From a virus: a DNA stretch of 36,895 bases. How positions within the stretch are numbered: the stretch's first letter is position 1; the number at the start of each line of letters is the position of its first letter. Below, one piece after another: positions 8,595 through 20,569 of this stretch. The stretch is taken from IMG/VR virus record IMGVR_UViG_3300025601_000055, positions 1 to 36,895 of that record; one strand, given 5' to 3'. The position numbers were made by a program, and so were the translations under genes. The notes beneath the pieces were generated by a model. That model saw only the letters and a list, made by a program, of their open reading frames with translations, had not been told where the DNA came from and searched no databases.

Positions 8595-9264
8595 TCTAGT
8601 ATGTTTCCCTCATTATACCTGTGGCGGAATGTTATGCGACATATTAAACGATTCGTTTTCAGTGGTTAGTATATATAACGGAGGAATAGCAAGCCTCCAC
8701 CACGACGCTGGCAAGATAGGAGATACTGAATCAATTTTTGAAGAATTCGATCAGAAAAAACTGTTTACTAAATTAGAAAAGTGGGGTAAGCCTGAATGGA
8801 TAGGTACACATTGTTGGTTAGGAAACACACCGTTAGAATCTGTTAACAGTATTATTAATATTACTACATCAACGTATAAGAGTAGACTCTATAGGTGGAT
8901 CAGAGCAGTTAACCATTATTATATTCCCAGTGACCCTTGGCTAGCAGAGACAGGCAACGATCAGGGGTATAGAGATAAAGCTAAAGAAACAGCTAAAAAT
9001 TATCTTAAACCATTTAGGCCAATTAAACTAGATAAGGTAATTAACTTAGAATTCTCTGACATTGTAGAGATGAAACCAGAATTCATTAGTGTTATACAAA
9101 AATATAATTACAAGCAATCAATTAACCGATGGCAAGAACAGAACTCATTCTTGTATAATCAAAACCTTTTAAGAAGTTTCGAAGCTGAGGTATTTCATGA
9201 GGCAGAACATGAAATAAATCTTAAAGAATATTATGTTTATGAAGTTGATAAATATACAAACTAG
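8587..9264 (+). CDS. Unknown phage protein, possibly sulfotransferase-like
   Basis: 225 residues. It begins VCFPHYTCGGMLCDILN, a Gly-rich turn at the position where sulfotransferases bind the PAPS 5'-phosphate. It continues with WIGTHCW (73-79) and ITTSTYKSRLYRWIRAV. The expected second PAPS motif (RDP-type) is not evident, so the link to sulfotransferases is weak. No signal peptide or transmembrane helix is seen. It overlaps the SGNH-like gene upstream. A late promoter for the following unit lies inside its last codons. A cytoplasmic enzyme is likely; the function is not recognised. Confidence 0.6.
   Translation: MYNLVCFPHYTCGGMLCDILNDSFSVVSIYNGGIASLHHDAGKIGDTESIFEEFDQKKLFTKLEKWGKPEWIGTHCWLGNTPLESVNSIINITTSTYKSRLYRWIRAVNHYYIPSDPWLAETGNDQGYRDKAKETAKNYLKPFRPIKLDKVINLEFSDIVEMKPEFISVIQKYNYKQSINRWQEQNSFLYNQNLLRSFEAEVFHEAEHEINLKEYYVYEVDKYTN
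9247..9254 (+). promoter_or_regulatory. T4-type late promoter box GATAAATA
   Basis: GATAAATA lies 25 bases before the ATG at 9280, predicting a start of transcription near 9260. It overlaps the last codons of the upstream gene. It would head the 9280-12461 unit, whose proteins carry prohead-protease-type N-termini, which agrees with late expression. Confidence 0.5.
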
Positions 9265-9279
9265 AGAGAATAATAAACC

Positions 9280-9525
9280 ATGCAAAAAAAGACTAGAAGT
9301 ATATTAGACGAACTAAATGACTTGCACATTCCAAAAGATAAAACACATCTTGTTGAAAGCCGTGCCAGTAATATTATCCAGTCAGCAATTAATCTGTTTG
9401 AACAGATTGATATGGCATACGACAGAGACCAAGCAGACGACCTTCAACGTAAGTTCGTTAACGCTATTAAAACTAGAGATCCAAAAAAGTTTTATAGGTC
9501 AGTGAGACGTAAAGATGAAGATTAA
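9280..9525 (+). CDS. Small conserved phage protein of unknown function
   Basis: 81 residues, charged and helical, with a coiled-coil-like middle (SRASNIIQSAINLFEQI) and a basic end (KTRDPKKFYRSVRRKDED). It resembles small uncharacterised proteins of marine T4-like phages from memory (RAxNxIxSAxNL followed by RDPKKFxR). It is the first gene after a late promoter and overlaps the next gene by 11 bases. A scaffold or head-associated role would suit the unit, but nothing in the sequence proves it. Confidence 0.7.
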   Translation: MQKKTRSILDELNDLHIPKDKTHLVESRASNIIQSAINLFEQIDMAYDRDQADDLQRKFVNAIKTRDPKKFYRSVRRKDED

Positions 9526-10093
9526 TGAAATTACAGAAGCAGGCATACTAGACCGACTTGTTAAAGGTACCAAAGCGGCTGTACAAGGGTACACACAATC
9601 TAAGGACACTCGTGTAAACGCTCAGGCAATAGCACAAATGTCGCAAGTGGCCGCAAGAGCTTGGGGCAAGATGAAACAAAATTTAGAACGTATCAATGAT
9701 TACAACCCCCTAACAAAACAACAAGAGACACAACAGTTAACTAAATGGATAGACGATAATCTATTAGGATCTTATCAATTAAAAAGCACCGGCGGTGACT
9801 TTCAGGGAATAGTTGCTAACCTAGTAAACAAGATCACTAGTGATCCAAAACAAACAGAACAATCATTTAGCACAATATTAACTAATGCAAGCAAGTTAGC
9901 ATTAGATCCAGAATCGGAACCATCACGTGCACCGCAAGCGGGCCAATTGGCAGGAGCTAACACTGCTCCATTTAAAGTTGTGGGGGATATTGCCACAGCA
10001 GGTAACATGGAATTGAATCTTAAAGATCCGCAACAACGAGAAATATACGATAGAATCAGAGATGAAGTTGCTAAAGGCGACATAAAAGCATGA
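9515..10093 (+). CDS. Putative internal head protein with capsid-targeting-like N-terminus
   Basis: 192 residues. The start MKINEITEAG closely resembles the T4 capsid-targeting sequence of internal proteins (MKTYQEFIAE, then A or G), and ITE-A fits the gp21 prohead protease rule (I/L)-x-E with cleavage after E. The rest is helical with a Gln/Ala-rich composition and a flexible region around 140-160 (SEPSRAPQAGQLAGAN). No enzyme motif is recognised. If processed as in T4, it is packaged in the capsid and could be injected with DNA. It overlaps the small gene upstream and the NTase-ligase fusion downstream (ATGA), so all are probably made together late in infection. Confidence 0.55.
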   Translation: MKINEITEAGILDRLVKGTKAAVQGYTQSKDTRVNAQAIAQMSQVAARAWGKMKQNLERINDYNPLTKQQETQQLTKWIDDNLLGSYQLKSTGGDFQGIVANLVNKITSDPKQTEQSFSTILTNASKLALDPESEPSRAPQAGQLAGANTAPFKVVGDIATAGNMELNLKDPQQREIYDRIRDEVAKGDIKA

Positions 10094-11895
10094 TAATACT
10101 TGAGGGTGGAAACGTATTCAAAGACGAAACCGGAACACCTTTAACTCAAAGGATTAATCTTGCGGATGTCAAACCAACAGTACAACAGTTAGAAAAACTT
10201 ACTGGACTGTCTCTATTAGATAATATGTTAGGTAGTACAGGAAACACTGCGACCAGTGGAGACTTAGATCTAGCAGTTGATGTTACAAAAATTACAAAAG
10301 ACCAATTAATACAGTCATTGAAGGCAAAGGGCGTTGACGATAAAGATATCGCTAAGTCGGGCGACAGTGTGCATTACAAAGCACCTATAAAAGGTGATCC
10401 AACAAATGGTTACGTGCAGACAGACTTTATGTTTGGTAATCCACAATGGCAGAAGTTTAGTTTAAATGTTGTTGGTAACAGCGAATTCAAAGGTGTACAT
10501 AGACATATACTATTAGCAAGCATTGCTAAAGCAAGAGGCCTCAAGTGGAGTTACAAGTACGGACTTGTAGTTAGAGAATCTAATAAAGTGTTGTCAACAG
10601 ACCCAGACGAAATTGCTAGAATATTAATTGGTGGTACACGAAAAGATCTAGGATCAGTTGAGACTATTATAGCCAGAGCTAAACAAGATCCAGAATATGA
10701 AAAACTAGTAGCTGATGCTAAAGAAACATTTGAAAGAGATGGATTAGTGTTAGAAGATGCCAACGATGCAAACTTTATGGCACGCCTTAGAGATCGTATT
10801 GTTAATCAAGGTATGGAAGTTATCATTGAAGGTGCTCGTATAGAACATCCTGAAGATATGATATTTGATGGTGCTAGTCAAGGTGCACTTAAGGCCATTG
10901 CTACTTTAAGATCATTACCTAAGCAAGCCGCCGACATTACAATTAAATGGGACGGCAAGCCTGCAATAATATTTGGACGTAATCCTCAAGGACAGTTTGT
11001 GTTAACAGACAAGTCAGGATTTACTGCTAAAGGCTACAACGGTCTAGCAACAAGTCTTGAACAATTAGAAAAGATAATGCAACAACGTAGTGGCGAACGA
11101 GGTGACCTTGTTAACATGTATAAAACTATATGGCCTGCACTAGAAGCACAAACACCAAAAGGTATGAAAGGTTATCTTATGGGCGACTTGCTATATGTAG
11201 GTACACCAACTGAAAGCAACGGTAAGTATACCTTTACTCCAAACACAGTTTCTTATGCAATAGATAAAAGCACAGACCTAGGTGATCAAATAGGTAACAG
11301 CATAGCCGCATTGGCAGTACACACATTTAAAAGAAGTCCTGAAGATGCAGGACAACCATTCAGCGATATTGCACAACTAGGACAAGGACAGGTATTAATA
11401 CTAGGTCCTAAAATGTCACAAACACCAACTGTTGATGTGCCAGAAGCACAACTAAGTGAACTTGAATCAACAATAAGAAAGAACTCAGATAAAATTGATG
11501 TGTTGTTTAATCCAGCAAGCCTACGTGAGTACCAACTTGCTAACTTACCAGCACTAATGAAACAGTACGGTAATGCTAAAGTACGACAAGGTAACTTTAG
11601 TAATATGGCAGAAGGCTTTTTAGAGTTTGCATCAACTAAAGTAACTCCACAAAAATTAGAAAGACTAACTAAGTTTTGCACAGACAATGCTCGTGCATTA
11701 GAACTAGTGTTTACATTGTTTAGAATGATAGGTGCTATTAAAACTAAAATTGTTAGACAACTAGACGGTGCTAGTTCAGGTATAGAAGCAAGCATAGATG
11801 GCGAACCAGGACATGAAGGATATGTTACTAGCGGTATTAAACTTGTAGATAGATTAAGATTTTCAAAATCAAACTTTGCAAAGAACATACAATAA
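10090..11895 (+). CDS. Fusion of Pol-beta-type nucleotidyltransferase and ligase-like nucleotidyltransferase
   Basis: 601 residues. The N-terminal part (about 40-235) has GS at 48-49, GDLDLAVD with D58/D60, and TDFMF with D112, the hG[S]...DhD...D pattern of Pol-beta-superfamily nucleotidyltransferases. The C-terminal part has K286-W-D-G (ligase motif I, the adenylated lysine), DKSGF-AKGY, GYLMGDLLYVG (motif III-like), EGYV (motif IV) and IKLVDRLRFS (motif V), the set found in ATP-dependent nucleic-acid ligases. The junction reads MEVIIEGARIEHPED (241-255), like the N-terminus of a once separate protein. IILEGG at the start and IIEG at the junction fit prohead-protease sites. The target, DNA or RNA, is unknown. 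Late unit. Confidence 0.6.
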   Translation: MIILEGGNVFKDETGTPLTQRINLADVKPTVQQLEKLTGLSLLDNMLGSTGNTATSGDLDLAVDVTKITKDQLIQSLKAKGVDDKDIAKSGDSVHYKAPIKGDPTNGYVQTDFMFGNPQWQKFSLNVVGNSEFKGVHRHILLASIAKARGLKWSYKYGLVVRESNKVLSTDPDEIARILIGGTRKDLGSVETIIARAKQDPEYEKLVADAKETFERDGLVLEDANDANFMARLRDRIVNQGMEVIIEGARIEHPEDMIFDGASQGALKAIATLRSLPKQAADITIKWDGKPAIIFGRNPQGQFVLTDKSGFTAKGYNGLATSLEQLEKIMQQRSGERGDLVNMYKTIWPALEAQTPKGMKGYLMGDLLYVGTPTESNGKYTFTPNTVSYAIDKSTDLGDQIGNSIAALAVHTFKRSPEDAGQPFSDIAQLGQGQVLILGPKMSQTPTVDVPEAQLSELESTIRKNSDKIDVLFNPASLREYQLANLPALMKQYGNAKVRQGNFSNMAEGFLEFASTKVTPQKLERLTKFCTDNARALELVFTLFRMIGAIKTKIVRQLDGASSGIEASIDGEPGHEGYVTSGIKLVDRLRFSKSNFAKNIQ

Positions 11896-12461
11896 TGGAA
11901 TTTATTAAAGATATTACAGAAGCAAGAATGTATCGTAGACTAGGTCAACTAGCAGGCAAAAATGTCAGCGAGTTAGCTAGCCAAACATTCACACACCTAT
12001 TGATGTTAAGATCATTATATGATCTAGATAAACCTAAAGCAGTTAAGTATGCTAAAGAAATAGTAAACAATTTAAACTTTAATGGCTTCAGAGCAAGTAT
12101 GCCTGATTTATATAACATGCTGGTCATGATTATAGAACAACACAAATATGCCGACAAGCTGTTTAACAATTGGGAAATAACTGTTCCTGAAATGCGTATT
12201 AAACGAGTAATTAGATCTATGTCTCAAGGAGATTTAGATTCAAACGACTTTGCCCAACTAATGTTAATTCTACAACGCAAGTTTCCAAACCTAGACGGTG
12301 ATCAAATGCGTATGCGTAGAATGGTGCAAAATACTACAAAATCCACATCATCAGACCGCAAATGGATGCAAAAACGCCTCTTACAGATGTCGAGAAGAGT
12401 AGTTAATTCAGACTTACACCAGCTATATCAACAGGTTAGCGGAGTAAAACTAGACACATAA
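11895..12461 (+). CDS. Conserved helical protein with capsid-targeting-like N-terminus
   Basis: 188 residues. The first residues MEFIKDITEAR match the T4 internal-protein targeting pattern (compare IPII, ...EFIAE then AR), with a predicted gp21-type cut after ITE. The remainder is almost wholly helical and basic (RRMVQNTTKST, WMQKRLLQMSRRV), consistent with binding packaged DNA. A related uncharacterised family is widespread in marine T4-like phages as far as I recall. The start overlaps the previous stop by one base (TAATGG). It ends the late unit that began at 9280; the promoter for the duplicated cassette follows at 12476. Confidence 0.6.
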   Translation: MEFIKDITEARMYRRLGQLAGKNVSELASQTFTHLLMLRSLYDLDKPKAVKYAKEIVNNLNFNGFRASMPDLYNMLVMIIEQHKYADKLFNNWEITVPEMRIKRVIRSMSQGDLDSNDFAQLMLILQRKFPNLDGDQMRMRRMVQNTTKSTSSDRKWMQKRLLQMSRRVVNSDLHQLYQQVSGVKLDT

Positions 12462-12528: not shown

Positions 12529-12885
12529 ATGGCAACATTAACAAGATCACATCCAGTAGCAACAAGTAACAATACTGAATCAATAGGTAACCTACAATTT
12601 TTAACAGTAGATTATGTAGCAACAGCGGCTTCAACAGGCCCTGAAGGTGCACAGGCGGCTGTACTTAAAGCAGTTGCGGCAACAGCAACAATTGTAGCCG
12701 TCGGCCCAATGTTAGACACAAACTCACAACAAACATTTGCTGTTGAAGCAATTAGTGGTGACAACGTGGTTGCGTCAACATTGCAAACAGCAATTCGTGC
12801 ATTAGGCACAGTTGACTCAGTTGATCTAAGTAATGCAACAGCTACACTTACACTATTAGGTATCTTAACAGCGGCAGTAGTTTAA
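12529..12885 (+). CDS. Small abundant-type virion protein, tandem paralogue 1
   Basis: 118 residues, starting MATLTRSHPVATSNN. It is rich in Ala, Val and Thr, beta-type, without Cys or membrane segments. It shares the N-terminus, TGPE...QAAV, QQTFAVE and a C-terminal ALGTVDS block with the protein at 13054-13401. A strong AGGAG site 9 bases upstream, its own late promoter, leader hairpin and terminator all suggest high expression, as for a decoration or other multi-copy virion protein. That role is inference. The family is not otherwise recognised. Confidence 0.75.
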   Translation: MATLTRSHPVATSNNTESIGNLQFLTVDYVATAASTGPEGAQAAVLKAVAATATIVAVGPMLDTNSQQTFAVEAISGDNVVASTLQTAIRALGTVDSVDLSNATATLTLLGILTAAVV

Positions 12886-13053: not shown

Positions 13054-13401
13054 ATGGCAACAGTAACAAGAACACATCCAGTAACAACAGAATATGACGT
13101 GGAATTTAACGGAAACTTACAATTTTTCACAGTTACATATCCATCTGACGTAAGTGGTAAAACAGGACCTGAATCAACACAAGCGGCTGTTCATAGAACA
13201 ATCGGCGATATTGCAACAGTTATTGCAGTTGGTGCTTTAGGTAACTCAAGTACTGAACAAACATTTGCAGTTGAAGGAATTGGCGGCGATATAGTTGTAA
13301 AAGCGGCACTTGACACAGCATTTGATGCATTAGGTACAGTAGACTCAATTAACTGTGCTAACGTTACAGTAACACTAAAGCCTTTATACATAGCAGTTTA
13401 A
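13054..13401 (+). CDS. Small abundant-type virion protein, tandem paralogue 2
   Basis: 115 residues, starting MATVTRTHPVTTEYD. It is clearly related to the protein at 12529 along its length (NLQFFTV, TGPESTQAAV, EQTFAVEGIGGD, ALGTVDS). The copies differ most in the middle and at the C-terminus (VTLKPLYIAV here), while the promoter and leader stay identical. Both frames are intact, so both are probably made. A capsid-decoration or fibre-associated role fits the late signals and composition but is inference. Confidence 0.75.
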   Translation: MATVTRTHPVTTEYDVEFNGNLQFFTVTYPSDVSGKTGPESTQAAVHRTIGDIATVIAVGALGNSSTEQTFAVEGIGGDIVVKAALDTAFDALGTVDSINCANVTVTLKPLYIAV

Positions 13402-13464: not shown

Positions 13465-13710
13465 ATGAATCCAAAACAAGAAGACTGGATATACGAAAGT
13501 CCTGATCGTGGACAAACGGTCTATCGCAGGAAGATTGGTGATAAACATTTTGAAAGACAGTTAGTAAATCTTCGGGCACCTAAGAAACAATTTTATTCTG
13601 ATGTCATGTGGTCATATAGGTCAGAATGGGACGAACTAGCCAGTAAACATCCTGTTATCAAAGAGTACCTAGACAAACTAATAACCACAGTAAAGTTGAT
13701 TGAAGAATGA
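13465..13710 (+). CDS. Small conserved phage protein of unknown function
   Basis: 81 residues from the ATG at 13465. An upstream GTG in frame (13435) lies within the terminator stem and is rejected. The protein is highly charged with a DWIYESPDRGQTVYRRK start and a helical C-terminus. There is no signal peptide or known motif. A late-type box directly abuts the start codon. It overlaps the next gene by 4 bases (ATGA), suggesting a coupled late pair with 13707-14135. Confidence 0.7.
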   Translation: MNPKQEDWIYESPDRGQTVYRRKIGDKHFERQLVNLRAPKKQFYSDVMWSYRSEWDELASKHPVIKEYLDKLITTVKLIEE

Positions 13711-14530: not shown

Positions 14531-15025
14531 ATGTCTGCGGCGAGCCCAACATTTAAGAAATTTAATGCCCTCGCCAAGCAGAGCATTGCATCAGTATCTA
14601 AAAACATAATTGTAAAAAAGAAAGACACCTACGAGGTATTTGGTAAGTATCGCATACGTAAACAGGAAGATGGGTTTGTTGTTTATAATAAAGATCAAAG
14701 AGTTAACACTTTTCTTTCGTCACGTAATGCACTTAGCTATTGTATATTTGAAAAATACTTTAAGTATGAAGATTCTAAATTACTAGAAAGATTAGATGGC
14801 CGACTACAGTCAAAATTGTTTGACATTGAAGTAGCACACCATATTTTAACTACATCTCAAGACAGCTTTAAGAAATTTAACGCATTGGCTAGAGTTGAGT
14901 TATATATAGATGACACAAAAAATATTAAAGAACAAATCAATGAAGTAGTCAACAAGGCTAAATACTTCCAACAAAGGGAATTAGACAATGAAGTTAACAG
15001 ACATACAACCAAAAACAGACGCTAA
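14531..15025 (+). CDS. Conserved phage protein with internal repeat, unknown function
   Basis: 164 residues from the ATG at 14531 (MSAASPTFKKF). An in-frame ATG at 14480 would start inside the preceding gene and is less likely. The protein carries the same nine-residue motif twice: TFKKFNALAK (7-16) and SFKKFNALAR (112-121). The middle has a small beta module (KDTYEVFGKYRIRKQEDGFVVY). It is helical and basic elsewhere. It overlaps the next gene by 38 bases. Placed between a membrane protein and structural-type genes of a late unit, it is probably a virion or assembly component, but it has no recognised domain. Confidence 0.7.
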   Translation: MSAASPTFKKFNALAKQSIASVSKNIIVKKKDTYEVFGKYRIRKQEDGFVVYNKDQRVNTFLSSRNALSYCIFEKYFKYEDSKLLERLDGRLQSKLFDIEVAHHILTTSQDSFKKFNALARVELYIDDTKNIKEQINEVVNKAKYFQQRELDNEVNRHTTKNRR

Positions 15026-15827
15026 ATTTATTAGCCGAGTGATCAACAGCTACTTTGCGTCAAAGGTAGATGTCCCTGCATTGAAAGAAAGTAATGCTCG
15101 CACAATGCTCACTAAAGTTAAAAAGTTAATTAAAGAAACTAAAGGTACATCTAAGTTCCATACCAGTGAGAAAAGCCCAGCTTATCTCCAACTGCTTATG
15201 ATGGAACAAGCATTAAGTGCTCAATTGATAGAGTATGGTGCCACCCACAGCGGCAATCAAGGCGGAACTGCATATACTAATCCTACATCATCAGTAATGG
15301 CTAACATTAAACCTGAAGATGAAGAAGAAGATGACGTAGAAGAAGCATGTGGATCTAAGCATAAAAAGAAAACAGAAGGTGCTTACGGTAAGAAGAAAAA
15401 AATGAAAGAAGCTAAACTAACAGAATCTGAAGTTGAAACAGCACAAGTTGTTTTAGCGGCACAGGACATGGTAGACAAGATTGCAGGCTGGATGGAAGAT
15501 GTTGCAGATATGCAATACAAAGATTTACCTGGATTAGTTGAAATGATGCGTAACGAAGTTGGTGTTAATGAAGCACAATCATTCTTAGATGCACAAACAG
15601 CAACATTAACAACATTACTAGGATCATTGGAACAAGCAAAAACAGAAGCAACAGCGGCTATGGCTCCCTTAACAGGCGAACAAGCAGTTGACCCAAGCGA
15701 ATTTAGTGGTGAACCAGATCTAGATGCAGGCGTTGATAATGATACTCCACCAGAATTAGATGCAGACAGCGATGGTGATATTACTGAACCAGATCTAGAA
15801 CCAGACTTAGGCAGAGAAAGAAGATAA
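14988..15827 (+). CDS. Acidic scaffold-like or virion protein
   Basis: 279 residues in three parts: a helical N-terminus (1-85), a highly charged linker (EDEEEDDVEEACGSKHKKK, then a Lys-rich run), and a helical domain (about 140-225: LTESEVETAQVVLAAQDMVDKIAGW). It ends in a very acidic Pro/Asp tail (PPELDADSDGDITEPDLEPDLG). The charge pattern resembles scaffolding or core proteins of tailed-phage heads. From memory, the central block matches proteins labelled virion structural in marine T4-like phages. AGGG upstream of the ATG supports the start despite the 38-base overlap with the previous gene. Its stop abuts the next ATG directly. Confidence 0.65.
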   Translation: MKLTDIQPKTDAKFISRVINSYFASKVDVPALKESNARTMLTKVKKLIKETKGTSKFHTSEKSPAYLQLLMMEQALSAQLIEYGATHSGNQGGTAYTNPTSSVMANIKPEDEEEDDVEEACGSKHKKKTEGAYGKKKKMKEAKLTESEVETAQVVLAAQDMVDKIAGWMEDVADMQYKDLPGLVEMMRNEVGVNEAQSFLDAQTATLTTLLGSLEQAKTEATAAMAPLTGEQAVDPSEFSGEPDLDAGVDNDTPPELDADSDGDITEPDLEPDLGRERR

Positions 15828-16148
15828 ATGAAACTGTTTGAGGTTAACGGGCAGGCGTTAGAACTGGCCTCACTGATACAATACCTAATAGGTAAAAGCG
15901 ACGAGCTAAAAACTAAACCCCAAATTAAAACAGACACATTCATTAACATGGCAAGACAGGCAGGTGTAAACGTATCACTTGGCAACTTACAGGCACTTTC
16001 AACTCAAACTCCTTTAAAAAACATGATCACAAATATTAATCAAGACACAATTGAATTTGGCATAGCAAACGATTTAAAAATGCCCGTAGACAAAGCAAGA
16101 GATGTTGTTAAAAAAATGGCAAAAAGATCATTAAGCAAAAGAATTTAG
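15828..16148 (+). CDS. Small conserved phage protein of unknown function
   Basis: 106 residues, all helical. It has an MKLFEVNGQALELASLIQYL start, a TDTFINMARQAGVNVSLGNL segment that resembles a helix-turn-helix, and a basic C-terminus (KMAKRSLSKRI). A related short protein occurs beside the scaffold-like gene in other marine T4-like phages as far as I recall. It starts at the base after the upstream stop (TAAATG), so translation is coupled. A strong terminator follows 22 bases after its stop and closes this late unit. Confidence 0.7.
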   Translation: MKLFEVNGQALELASLIQYLIGKSDELKTKPQIKTDTFINMARQAGVNVSLGNLQALSTQTPLKNMITNINQDTIEFGIANDLKMPVDKARDVVKKMAKRSLSKRI

Positions 16149-16272: not shown

Positions 16273-16656
16273 ATGGCTTATTCAGATAAAGTATTAGATC
16301 ATTATGAAAATCCTAGGAACGTAGGTTCTATGGATAAGAACGACCCATCAGTAGGTACTGGCATGGTAGGTGCACCTGCGTGTGGTGACGTTATGAAATT
16401 ACAGATACAAGTAAAAGATGGAGTAATAACAGATGCGAAGTTCAAAACTTACGGATGCGGTTCGGCAATCGCGAGTTCAAGCCTTGTCACAGAAATGCTC
16501 AAAGGCAAAACAGTTGAACAAGCACAAGCAATCCAAAATATGGAAATTGTTGAAGAGCTTGCTCTTCCGCCTGTAAAGATACATTGCTCAGTGCTAGCAG
16601 AAGATGCTATTAAAAGTGCTCTAGCAGACTATAGAAAAAAGCAAGAAACAGCGTAG
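16273..16656 (+). CDS. iscU: Fe-S cluster scaffold protein IscU
   Basis: 127 residues, the length of bacterial IscU (about 128). All ligands are present: C37 and D39 (ACGD), C62 (YGCGSA), H104 and C105 (HCS), plus the LPPVK chaperone-recognition motif (98-102). IscU receives sulfur from a cysteine desulfurase and iron to build [2Fe-2S] clusters. No iscS, hscA or hscB is in the window, so it would rely on host partners. AGGAG 6 bases before the ATG is a strong ribosome site. It is the first gene of a three-gene cassette with a DUF1289 protein and iscA. Fe-S genes are known as auxiliary genes in marine viruses. Confidence 0.95.
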   Translation: MAYSDKVLDHYENPRNVGSMDKNDPSVGTGMVGAPACGDVMKLQIQVKDGVITDAKFKTYGCGSAIASSSLVTEMLKGKTVEQAQAIQNMEIVEELALPPVKIHCSVLAEDAIKSALADYRKKQETA

Positions 16657-16657
16657 T

Positions 16658-16831
16658 ATGGCTGAGCTAATAGAAACACCTTGCGTTGCAATATGCAGAA
16701 CAGAAAATGGGGTGTGCATTGGGTGTGGACGGACTGTAGAAGAAGTAACTAAATGGCTTGATTATACAGATCACGAGCGTAAAAGTGTAATGGAAAGATT
16801 AGAAAAGGAAACACATGATCTCTTTAACTAA
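16658..16831 (+). CDS. DUF1289-family small cysteine-rich protein
   Basis: 57 residues, starting one base after the iscU stop codon. It reads [18 protein letters not shown] with C9 and C13, then GVCIGCGRT with C20 and C23, and [16 protein letters not shown]. This is the characteristic DUF1289 layout (CxxxC...CxGCGRT...W...ER..VM.RL), thought to bind metal or an Fe-S cluster. The family is common in proteobacterial genomes. Here it lies between iscU and iscA and overlaps iscA by 17 bases, so it probably acts in cluster assembly or delivery. That role is inference. Confidence 0.85.
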
Positions 16832-17138
16832 AAAAGCCGCAGGGCGGGCTAGTAAATATATATCCAATAGAGCAAGCACTCTTGGTTTACGCATCGGCGT
16901 AAAAACTACAGGCTGTTCAGGCATGGCCTATGTATTAGAGTTTGTTGACACTATAGAAGAAGAATTTGACGAAGTGTTTGAAGATCATGGTGTTAAGTTA
17001 GTAGTCAATAAGAAAGATCTAGTGTACCTTAGCGGTCTACAATTAGATTATCAAAAGAAAGGACTCAATGAAGGCTTTGAGTTCATCAATCCAAACGTTA
17101 AAGCTGAATGTGGTTGTGGAGAAAGTTTCACAGTTTAG
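16815..17138 (+). CDS. iscA: A-type Fe-S carrier protein IscA
   Basis: 107 residues, the same length as E. coli IscA. The three ligand cysteines are C34 ([15 protein letters not shown]) and C99/C101 (ECGCGESF). [21 protein letters not shown] is the standard core. It carries or inserts clusters made on IscU. The [16 protein letters not shown] and C-terminal sequence favour IscA over SufA or ErpA, though the A-type groups are close. It overlaps the DUF1289 gene, so the three proteins are translated as a unit. A sigma70-like promoter begins at the base after its stop. Confidence 0.93.
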
Positions 17139-18679: not shown

Positions 18680-19029
18680 TTGATTTTCTATTTTTTCTAA
18701 TAGTAAAGCACATAATATGCGACCTTGGTCTGCAAAGCCAATTTCTCTGGGGTAAGACACATAATAAACAACATTACTTTGGTTGTCATTTACACTATTT
18801 CCATCATGGGTTAGGCACTTTACTAGTTGCATTATTTTTTGTTAGTCCTCTTCTAGCATTAGCTCTGGCACTTGTTGATTATGTAGCACATTGGAATATT
18901 GATTTTTGTAAACACAGAATTAACAACGCCTTAGGTAGTACACGTAAAGATAAATTGTTTTGGTGGATAAATTCAGTTGATCAGGGCTTACACATGTTAA
19001 CTTATTATCTTCTTGTTCTCTATGTCTAA
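18676..19029 (+). CDS. DUF3307-like small membrane protein
   Basis: 117 residues with several hydrophobic segments (3-15, 45-67 and 103-116). Conserved polar residues lie inside them: KHIICDLGLQSQF, CHLHYFHHG, VDYVAHWNIDFCKH and NSVDQGLHMLTYY. This His/Asp pattern (H...D..LQ, H..H, D..H, DQ..H) matches the DUF3307 membrane family. Its function is unknown; the buried polar residues suggest metal binding or an integral-membrane enzyme. It overlaps the exonuclease stop by 4 bases and the radical-SAM gene by 8 bases, so all three are probably co-expressed. Confidence 0.65.
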   Translation: MIDFLFFLIVKHIICDLGLQSQFLWGKTHNKQHYFGCHLHYFHHGLGTLLVALFFVSPLLALALALVDYVAHWNIDFCKHRINNALGSTRKDKLFWWINSVDQGLHMLTYYLLVLYV

Positions 19030-20569
19030 TAAAACTGATATTTTAATTTGTTCGTTACCTACATTGTTTGTAGATAGGTTACCTGGAGCACCTGCATTAA
19101 TTAAATCAGCATGCAAAGAAGCAGGCTTCACAGCTCAAACTATAGACTTATCATTAGATTTTTATATAAACGAATCTGTAAGAAACTTAGAACAGTTTAA
19201 TAAATTATCTTCGGTTTTTCGGCCATCAGAAGAACCAAGCGAGAGTGCTATAGCCGCAAAAGACAAATGGCTAAAAAGAGCCATTGGGTATATTAAAGAT
19301 TCAAACTGCCCTGTTGTTGGGCTGAGTGTGTTTACATTTTTTCAACACAGAGCCGCATATTTTCTAGCTAAAGAAATACGTAAACAACTGCCCAACGTTA
19401 AAATATTAGTAGGAGGACTGGGCCTGAATATCAATTGTACTAGTTTATCTAATCTGATAAAAATTAATAGATTAGATATTTTAAATCCTTTTCATGTATT
19501 TTTAAAGATCAACAAATTAGTTGATCACGTTATCTTAGGAGTCGACGGGTTAGATGATATTATTAAATATTTGGAATTAGAACTTGGTGTTAATGCGATT
19601 AATGGTGTTATTAAAGAAGAAATTGCACTGAAAAAAAATCAATATGCATCTCCGGTTCCAGATTACGATGACTATCTAATAAATGAATATATGTGGCCAG
19701 ACGGCAAATCCTTACCAGTCACTGGTAGTAAAGGATGTGTAAGAGCTTGTACATTCTGCGACGTACCTGGGCAGTTTGGTAGATTTCGTATGCGTACCGG
19801 AGTAGATATAGGGAATGAAATAGTTCAATTAGCAACGAGGCACGGAATACGAAAATTTGAATTTACTGACAGTCTGGTCAATGGTAGCCTTAAGGTATTT
19901 AAAGAATGGATGGAGGTTGTTGCAGATTACAACAATCAACAACCTATTGAAAATAGAATAACCTGGTTTGGTCAATATATTTGTAGACCGCAAAGTCAAA
20001 TACCCGAGGATCTCTATAGTCTAATGAGCCAATCGGGTGTAGTAAATTTAGTAATAGGTGTCGAAAGCGGTAGTAATGCGATCCTAAAAGATATGAAGAA
20101 AAAAATGACTGTTGAAGATGTGTTTGATGAATTAGATATGTTTGAAAAATATAACATTAAGGCACATTTTTTAATGTTTTCAGGATTTTATACTGAGACC
20201 CGAGATAGGTTCATTGAGACTATAGAATTTTTAATTAAGTGTCAACGATATGTAGCAACTGGCATCGTTGCAAAGTTTTCAATCGGAGCACCTCTATATA
20301 TTAACAACGACACATACTTACATGATCATGCAGAAGATTTAGGACTGGTTATAGATCCATTCAACGACTTTAATTGGACTACTAAAGAAGATCCATCCAA
20401 TGATCTTATTCAACGAACATACAATAGATTGATACAGCAAGAATTAATGGATGTGTTGGGGTATCATGCATCTAGTCAACATGTTTCTACAATGTATCAA
20501 CTTGATGTAATGTTATCTCAAATAGAAAACGAATTAGAGGAAAGGTTAAATGAATATGCTAAGACCTGA
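19022..20569 (+). CDS. Radical SAM protein with B12-binding-like N-terminal domain
   Basis: About 515 residues from the ATG at 19022. Residues 1-190 form an alpha/beta domain like the cobalamin-binding fold (GAPALIKSACKEAGF, VVGLSVFTFFQHRAAYFLAKEI, KILVGGLG), but without the DxHxxG base-off motif. The radical-SAM core follows with C239, C243 and C246 (CVRACTFC), holding a [4Fe-4S] cluster and SAM, then KFEFTDSLVNG and VIGVESGSN. Related B12-type enzymes methylate or cyclise diverse substrates; the substrate here is unknown. It is the clearest Fe-S client in the window and lies 2 kb after iscU-iscA. It overlaps both neighbours. Confidence 0.8.
   Translation: MSNKTDILICSLPTLFVDRLPGAPALIKSACKEAGFTAQTIDLSLDFYINESVRNLEQFNKLSSVFRPSEEPSESAIAAKDKWLKRAIGYIKDSNCPVVGLSVFTFFQHRAAYFLAKEIRKQLPNVKILVGGLGLNINCTSLSNLIKINRLDILNPFHVFLKINKLVDHVILGVDGLDDIIKYLELELGVNAINGVIKEEIALKKNQYASPVPDYDDYLINEYMWPDGKSLPVTGSKGCVRACTFCDVPGQFGRFRMRTGVDIGNEIVQLATRHGIRKFEFTDSLVNGSLKVFKEWMEVVADYNNQQPIENRITWFGQYICRPQSQIPEDLYSLMSQSGVVNLVIGVESGSNAILKDMKKKMTVEDVFDELDMFEKYNIKAHFLMFSGFYTETRDRFIETIEFLIKCQRYVATGIVAKFSIGAPLYINNDTYLHDHAEDLGLVIDPFNDFNWTTKEDPSNDLIQRTYNRLIQQELMDVLGYHASSQHVSTMYQLDVMLSQIENELEERLNEYAKT

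Follow-up and report, generated by a model that had tools for sequence, protein, structure and literature searches.

Predicted leaders of the T4 internal-protein type in a late gene cluster

Phage proteins that travel in the head and are injected into the host have been described chiefly in T4, P1 and a few giant phages, and a 10-residue stretch of the T4 internal protein IPIII is sufficient for targeting. The T4 protease gp21 follows the cutting rule L/I-x-E; the leaders of the T4 internal proteins (IPs) are 10–19 residues long and the propeptide of Alt has 7 residues (PMC9026906). Here, we analysed a 36,895-nt stretch of DNA from the IMG/VR record IMGVR_UViG_3300025601_000055 (hereafter, the window), a fragment of a T4-related phage, in which four genes of the plus strand, here named g0, gA, gB and gC (Table 1), follow one another with overlaps of 1–11 bases (1–4 bases among gA, gB and gC). 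We propose, with a probability of about 0.68, that these genes form a late head-cargo operon, whose tagged products would lose their leaders by cleavage and be ejected into the host, where gB would repair nucleic acid at entry.

Like IPI-III and Alt of T4, the proteins gA, gB and gC carry a short N-terminal leader that ends in (I/L)xE, often with A, S or G as the next residue, and they share with the T4 proteins a predicted late expression, dispensable variable bodies, and a phage group that encodes a protease from the gp21 family. In contrast to T4, three adjacent genes here have non-identical leaders, and one of the putative cargo proteins is a large two-domain nucleic-acid enzyme with a leader of 4–5 residues in most homologues. 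With respect to the T4 IPs, the leaders of gA (8 residues) and gC (9 residues) are near the known range, whereas that of gB, at 5 residues, falls below even the propeptide of Alt; all three end in L/I-x-E. The kind of system is therefore the one known from the T4 internal proteins, while what is new is the conserved cargo operon, a cargo resembling family-X DNA polymerases (PolX) and ligases, and a leader rule that spans uncultured phages.

An earlier note on this DNA had described open reading frames at 9515, 10090 and 11895 with the starts MKINEITEAG, MIILEGGNVF and MEFIKDITEAR, and had read these starts as T4-style capsid-targeting sequences. The three frames are present with these starts, and the reading is supported by the conservation of the leaders, by the S77 protease of a relative, and by colinear virion loci; the cluster begins one gene earlier than the note had it, as g0 had been skipped. 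In alignments of homologues, which the note had proposed as a check, (I/L)xE is kept at the end of the leader in the gA, gB and gC families, and the flanks vary.

We collected 42 distinct leaders of the gB family upstream of the conserved GGxxFKD. The P1 residue of the predicted cut is Glu in all of them, and P3 is always L, I or V (28, 12 and 2, respectively), against a background of about 24% for I+L+V among residues 2–9 in these genomes. P2, on the other hand, takes eleven different residues, and leader length ranges from 4 to 19 residues, apart from one longer start that is uncertain. No formal probability is attached to these counts, since the leaders come from related sequences and the nearest ATG was taken as the start; Glu was moreover demanded by one of the two search patterns, whereas P3 was free of selection. 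Homologues of the PolX-like half that have no leader start exactly where the cut would fall in gB (M-GGAAFKD in Phosso, M-GGRAFDG in Atu_ph07, M-SGNAFG in PA5oct), which fits a leader added on to this domain, while also showing that a PolX-like protein can go without one. The AlphaFold model of gB is disordered at the leader (residues 1–6 with a predicted local distance difference test, pLDDT, below 50), as is that of gC (residues 2–13, pLDDT<50).

The same pattern is seen in the two other families. The start MKINEI(T/I..)E(G/A) of gA is retained in 21 of 23 distinct homologues with bodies down to 27% identity. The gA frame opens within the conserved end of g0, so that M-K-I and part of the N codon are shared between the two genes; g0 thus fixes these first residues in part, but puts no such constraint on EI..E(G/A). 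Gene overlap as the cause of the leaders was considered; it is possible for the MKI of gA but excluded for gB, which shares 4 bases with gA and, in homologues, follows different genes, and for gC, which shares 1 base with the gene before it. The gC homologues, 21–68% identical, all retain the Glu of the predicted site (E9), the leaders ranging from about 9 to 24 residues, with I or L always at P3 and A or S at P1' (ITE|A, LVE|S, LDE|S, IIE|S, LEE|S, LNE|S). The gC homologues of Phosso and Atu_ph07 keep the cut site, although the PolX-like protein is leaderless in these phages.

Motif matching alone would not be sufficient. The loose motif [ILVF]xE[AGS] within residues 2–14 occurs in 5 of the 54 proteins of the window versus 2.0 expected (P=0.05) and in 12 proteins of T4 versus 8.9 expected, and it is unenriched in 6 of the 8 sequences tested (T4 and five further genomes). 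The genome-wide count of this motif was thus dropped as evidence, being near chance in most genomes. Four of the T4 matches are known gp21 substrates (IPII, IPIII, gp22 and gp24). The tighter motif [FYIL][IL]xE[AGS] was found 6 times in T4 versus 1.2 in shuffled N-termini, and 6 times versus 0.45 expected in G001, a near-complete close relative of 132 kb with a gB 92% identical (0 of 400 shuffles in both cases). We accept the three tags because the conservation among homologues lifts them well above chance.

Upstream of g0, a late-promoter-like box at 9247 had been reported by the earlier note. Of 32 distinct upstream regions from relatives, 29 have ATAAATA between −24 and −32 relative to g0, and the remaining three read CTAAATAA. 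In the window, bare ATAAATA is rarer than chance (10 observed versus 19 expected). Since its position is kept in so many relatives amid diverged or unrelated flanks, we consider the box as real, suggesting that g0-gA-gB-gC would be transcribed late, as expected for packaged proteins of the T4 type.

Predicted domains of the gB protein

Two nucleotidyltransferase-type domains had been noted in gB, correctly, and they can now be described more sharply. The best reading is that gB joins a family-X-DNA-polymerase-like domain, assigned by fold, to a ligase-like adenylyltransferase domain, assigned by its KxDG and further motifs, the activity of both being predicted. We modelled gB with AlphaFold2 (mean pLDDT 78) and searched folds by Foldseek. 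The top 50 PDB matches of the N-terminal half of the model are all Pol lambda, Pol mu, Pol beta or TdT (probability 0.98–1.00, E 1e-3 to 2e-2), with low TM-scores of 0.31–0.46 by target length. As in these family-X enzymes, a GS motif and three catalytic Asp residues are found, and all five positions (Table 1) are invariant in the alignments of gB homologues; unlike them, gB has a C-terminal ligase-like fusion.

The C-terminal part matches the DUF6267 profile (PF19782) with E=1.2e-40 and 140.5 bits versus a cut-off of 27, and all 37 members match. It carries KxDG, GD, EGxV and K in the order of motifs I, III, IV and V of the ATP-dependent DNA/RNA ligase superfamily, invariant at 26–67% identity; unlike the ligases, it is present in Pfam only as DUF6267. 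Our literature search on DUF6267 found no paper, and searches of PDB sequences with the gB, DUF6267 and PolX profiles, and with that of an ADP-ribosyltransferase (ART)-like array described below, gave no relevant match. The gB family looks viral, because no relative in bacterial or archaeal genomes was confirmed. In Atu_ph07 and Phosso, the PolX-like domain is a separate protein with a KxDG protein directly upstream, and in PA5oct the KxDG protein (gp256) lies three genes before the PolX-like one. Being fused in gB and separate neighbours in other phages, the two partners travel together. In G002, a relative of 192 kb, the gB gene is split by a frame change inside DUF6267 (19369–20407).

Because of the polymerase fold, we lean towards DNA rather than RNA as the substrate of gB. 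A role in mending RNA, in which the Pol-beta-fold and RNA-ligase-like domains would repair tRNAs cut by host anticodon nucleases at infection, is possible but doubtful, and would be compatible with packaging. It is favoured by weak matches to the Pfam RNA_ligase family of the Atu_ph07 KxDG neighbour (E=0.002 over the whole domain, below the cut-off) and of Phosso 446 (E=0.085), and by weak RNA-ligase fold matches in a viral library. However, the first domain has only template-using DNA polymerases and TdT as its top fold matches, with no CCA-adding or poly(A) enzymes among them, and no kinase or phosphatase partner is seen adjoining gB.

Profile searches with gA found no Pfam or PHROG match and no useful NCBIfam match; gC gave no useful match in PHROG, NCBIfam or Pfam, and its fold search no PDB match, with nothing better than E 0.7. 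As gA has an isoelectric point (pI) of 8.8 and gC is still more basic (Table 1), both may be DNA-binding companions of gB.

Predicted cleavage and packaging weighed against other explanations

The head module lies outside the 36.9-kb fragment, and a protease search in the window found no prohead protease or capsid genes. The earlier note had suggested looking for a gp21-type protease and for more tagged genes; both exist in the close relative G001, the protease being absent from the window itself. G001 has a portal, an S77 (gp21-type) prohead protease (85.9 bits versus a cut-off of 27), a scaffold and a major capsid protein in T4 order, and its gp23 reads HLAE|ASVAGTTTAGN at the position where T4 gp23 is cut, the same type of site. 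The search recovered T4 gp21 as positive control and detected the protease in all seven reference phages. Further tagged late proteins of G001 are encoded at 79328 (very basic, MKINEIIIE|G), 87859, 89718, 90224, 91158 and 91715. We strongly infer that gA, gB and gC are processed after the leader Glu.

Evidence on packaging comes from colinear loci. The order primase, helicase, g0, PolX-like gene and ribonucleotide reductase of the window is that of the gp259-gp246 cluster of PA5oct. In PA5oct, g0 is labelled virion structural, and the homologues of the first half of gB (gp253) and of the proteins at 13707 and 14988 bear notes reading 'structural protein, ESI-MS/MS' (electrospray tandem mass spectrometry); by difference, PolX and KxDG are on separate proteins there and gA and gC have no clear counterpart. 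In RaK2, g0 and ORF131, 132, 135 and 136 are labelled virion structural; the RaK2 paper lists 54 virion proteins by mass spectrometry, and these ORFs are not named in its main text. In cyanophages, a DUF6267 gene follows gp41 at the equivalent place, and it is followed by T4-GC190, an NMNAT/cytidylyltransferase-like protein that was detected in S-SM1 virions by mass spectrometry (PMC3037559). T4-GC190 begins with MKKFSAFLNEA in S-SM1, MKKFSTFISEA in S-ShM2 and MKSFNEFLTEA in other contigs, close to the MKTYQEFIAEA of T4. It has another catalytic domain and is not homologous to gA or gC, its tie to gB being the DUF6267 neighbourhood and a fusion of DUF6267 with T4-GC190 in S-PM2 and phrog_455. 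In the S-PM2 genome (NC_006820; L286, 6026–7805), DUF6267 lies in two frames, the second half being fused to the NMNAT-like T4-GC190 domain, a break that may be a sequencing error as the UniProt version is one 591-aa protein. Packaging of gA, gB and gC in heads is likely; lines of evidence other than the motif speak for the interpretation without proving it.

Based on these results, we propose the following course of events. After late transcription, the leaders would either carry gA, gB and gC into the prohead or be removed inside it; a leader-dependent entry into the prohead core may hold least for gB, with its short leader. There is strong reason to expect that the S77/gp21-type serine protease would then cut after the leader Glu, giving mature products of 184 aa for gA, 596 aa for gB (starting GGNVFKD) and 179 aa for the basic gC. 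By analogy with T4, these would stay with the DNA and be ejected into the host, where gB, judged by its domains, would most likely fill and seal nucleic-acid breaks within the first minutes after entry, the incoming phage DNA being a more probable target than RNA.

Several observations weigh against this reading. The leader is not universal in these families: among distant homologues, it is absent from the PolX homologues of PA5oct, Phosso and Atu_ph07, from most cyanophage DUF6267 proteins seen, and from 2 of the 23 gA homologues. The usual 4–5 residues of the gB leader are also fewer than the 10 that target IPIII. The mass spectrometry notes of PA5oct are permissive, as ribonucleotide reductase and the recombinase UvsX carry them too, and gp253 bears such a note yet has no leader. 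Regarding the enzyme, sequence-profile searches with gB found no polymerase, and for this reason we term it PolX-like and not a member of family X; hhalign of DUF6267 versus T4 gp30, RnlA and RnlB was not significant, and no ligase is among the top PDB fold matches.

One may ask whether gA, gB and gC are instead prohead core or head-structural parts that are cut in maturation, like gp22, gp24, gp67 and gp68 of T4, and that shape or stabilize the head rather than being delivered. The matches of g0 and of the 14988 protein to virion-structural PHROGs of the head-and-packaging class speak for this, as do gp22 and gp24 among the T4 matches of the tag pattern and the lack of an enzyme match for gA and gC. 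A small PA5oct protein encoded directly after the portal (82921–83142), in the place of T4 gp67/68, also starts with MKINDIITEG, nearly the tag of gA, and bears a virion mass spectrometry note. We nevertheless find a purely structural role improbable: gB keeps two complete invariant sets of catalytic motifs, unlikely for a mere head part, and gA is dispensable, since some relatives have lost it and have gB directly after g0.

There is even less to be expected from the idea that gB is an ordinary unpackaged late or middle enzyme of DNA or RNA repair acting inside the cell, its (I/L)xE being due to chance or to a regulatory feature of the start region. The gB gene does lie just downstream of primase and helicase genes, the loose motif is near chance genome-wide, and distant homologues are leaderless. 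Chance or regulation would hardly explain fixed P3 and P1 with variable P2 and length over 42 leaders, nor the same pattern arising independently in gA and gC; the late promoter and the virion note of the PA5oct homologue also argue for the packaging of gB.

Surrounding genes and related tagged groups

Table 1. Features of the g0-gC region and of the following genes in the window
Feature	Position	Strand	Description
Late-promoter-like box GATAAATA	9247..9254	+	26 bases upstream of g0
g0	9280..9525	+	81 aa, opens the operon; phrog_11854 'virion structural protein'; PA5oct and RaK2 homologues labelled virion proteins
gA	9515..10093	+	192 aa, predicted head cargo, fast-diverging body
Predicted gA leader MKINEITE	9515..9538	+	predicted cut before A9
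gB	10090..11895	+	601 aa, predicted fusion enzyme: PolX-like and DUF6267 (ligase-like)
Predicted gB leader MIILE	10090..10104	+	predicted cut before G6-G7
Family-X DNA-polymerase-like domain	10105..10764	+	G48-S49, D58, D60, D112 invariant; fold matches
DUF6267 domain	10840..11883	+	ligase-type motifs K286-W-D-G, G365-D366, E576-G-Y-V, K584
gC	11895..12461	+	188 aa, predicted head cargo, basic (mature pI 10.1), all-helical
Predicted gC leader MEFIKDITE	11895..11921	+	predicted cut before A10
Virion-protein homologue, same late region	14988..15827	+	phrog_14154 head and packaging; PA5oct gp247 (ESI-MS/MS), RaK2 ORF135
Possible further tagged protein, leader MKLFE	15828..16148	+	N-terminus; gene order as PA5oct gp246 / RaK2 ORF136

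Within the cluster, residues 24–29 of g0 hold a conserved (L/I)xE|(S/A)RA stretch (HLVESRA, YIVESRA, QIIEARA), at which g0 may also be cut. After gC, two tandem paralogous small proteins (12529–12885 and 13054–13401, starting MATLTRSHPV and MATVTRTHPV) are positioned like gp251 and gp250, small structural proteins of PA5oct with mass spectrometry notes, and are perhaps head decoration proteins. The possible leader of the 15828 protein is retained as MKLFE in G001 and reads MLIYE in G002; the protein was likened to gp246 and ORF136 by position and by eye, the match not being significant. Further downstream, two genes of iron-sulphur cluster assembly, NifU/IscU-like (PF01592) and IscA-like (PF01521), occupy 16273–17138 and are followed by a radical-SAM/B12-type protein at 19013–20569.

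The tagged proteins of G001 at 79328–92197 make up a second late group (MKINEIIIEG, MKTFTEYLTES, MKSLDEYLKEA, MRAKEFLKEF, MKILEIQEG, MRASDFITEL), several of them being small and basic like the T4 internal proteins. In Atu_ph07 (MF403008; L283, 7643–9935, and L287, 3485–11219), ten consecutive paralogues, AUZ94874 to AUZ94865, each start with M(K/R)W..LxE and come directly after the PolX-like gene, the homologue of gC and a further gene with a tag (AUZ94875). Eight of them were aligned; their bodies are 17–38% identical and keep an invariant YRG...S...E as in ADP-ribosyltransferases. This array is possibly an expanded set of packaged Alt-like proteins, the ART identity being suggested by the motif.

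As a tentative extension, for which the odds are somewhat below even, widespread marine and jumbo T4-related phages would use a dedicated head-cargo operon to deliver with their genome a PolX-like and ligase-like repair machine, fused or as neighbours, mending incoming DNA or damaged host RNA before phage gene expression, and other tagged enzymes would be placed at the same locus, the cyanophages having an NMNAT-like one and Atu_ph07 its ADP-ribosyltransferase-like array. A leader rule that can be read from sequence, with a conservation test and a syntenic locus behind it, lets head cargo be predicted in uncultured T4-related phages. For DUF6267, found in hundreds of records from cyanophages and other phages and with no known role, a function is now proposed for the first time. 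As one of the tagged proteins is a predicted DNA-polymerase/ligase-like enzyme, infection by this virus may bring a repair enzyme for nucleic acids into the cell. Were gB packaged, the cell would receive from the phage an enzyme for gap filling and end sealing, and repair at entry, against nicking defences or anticodon nucleases, would become directly testable.

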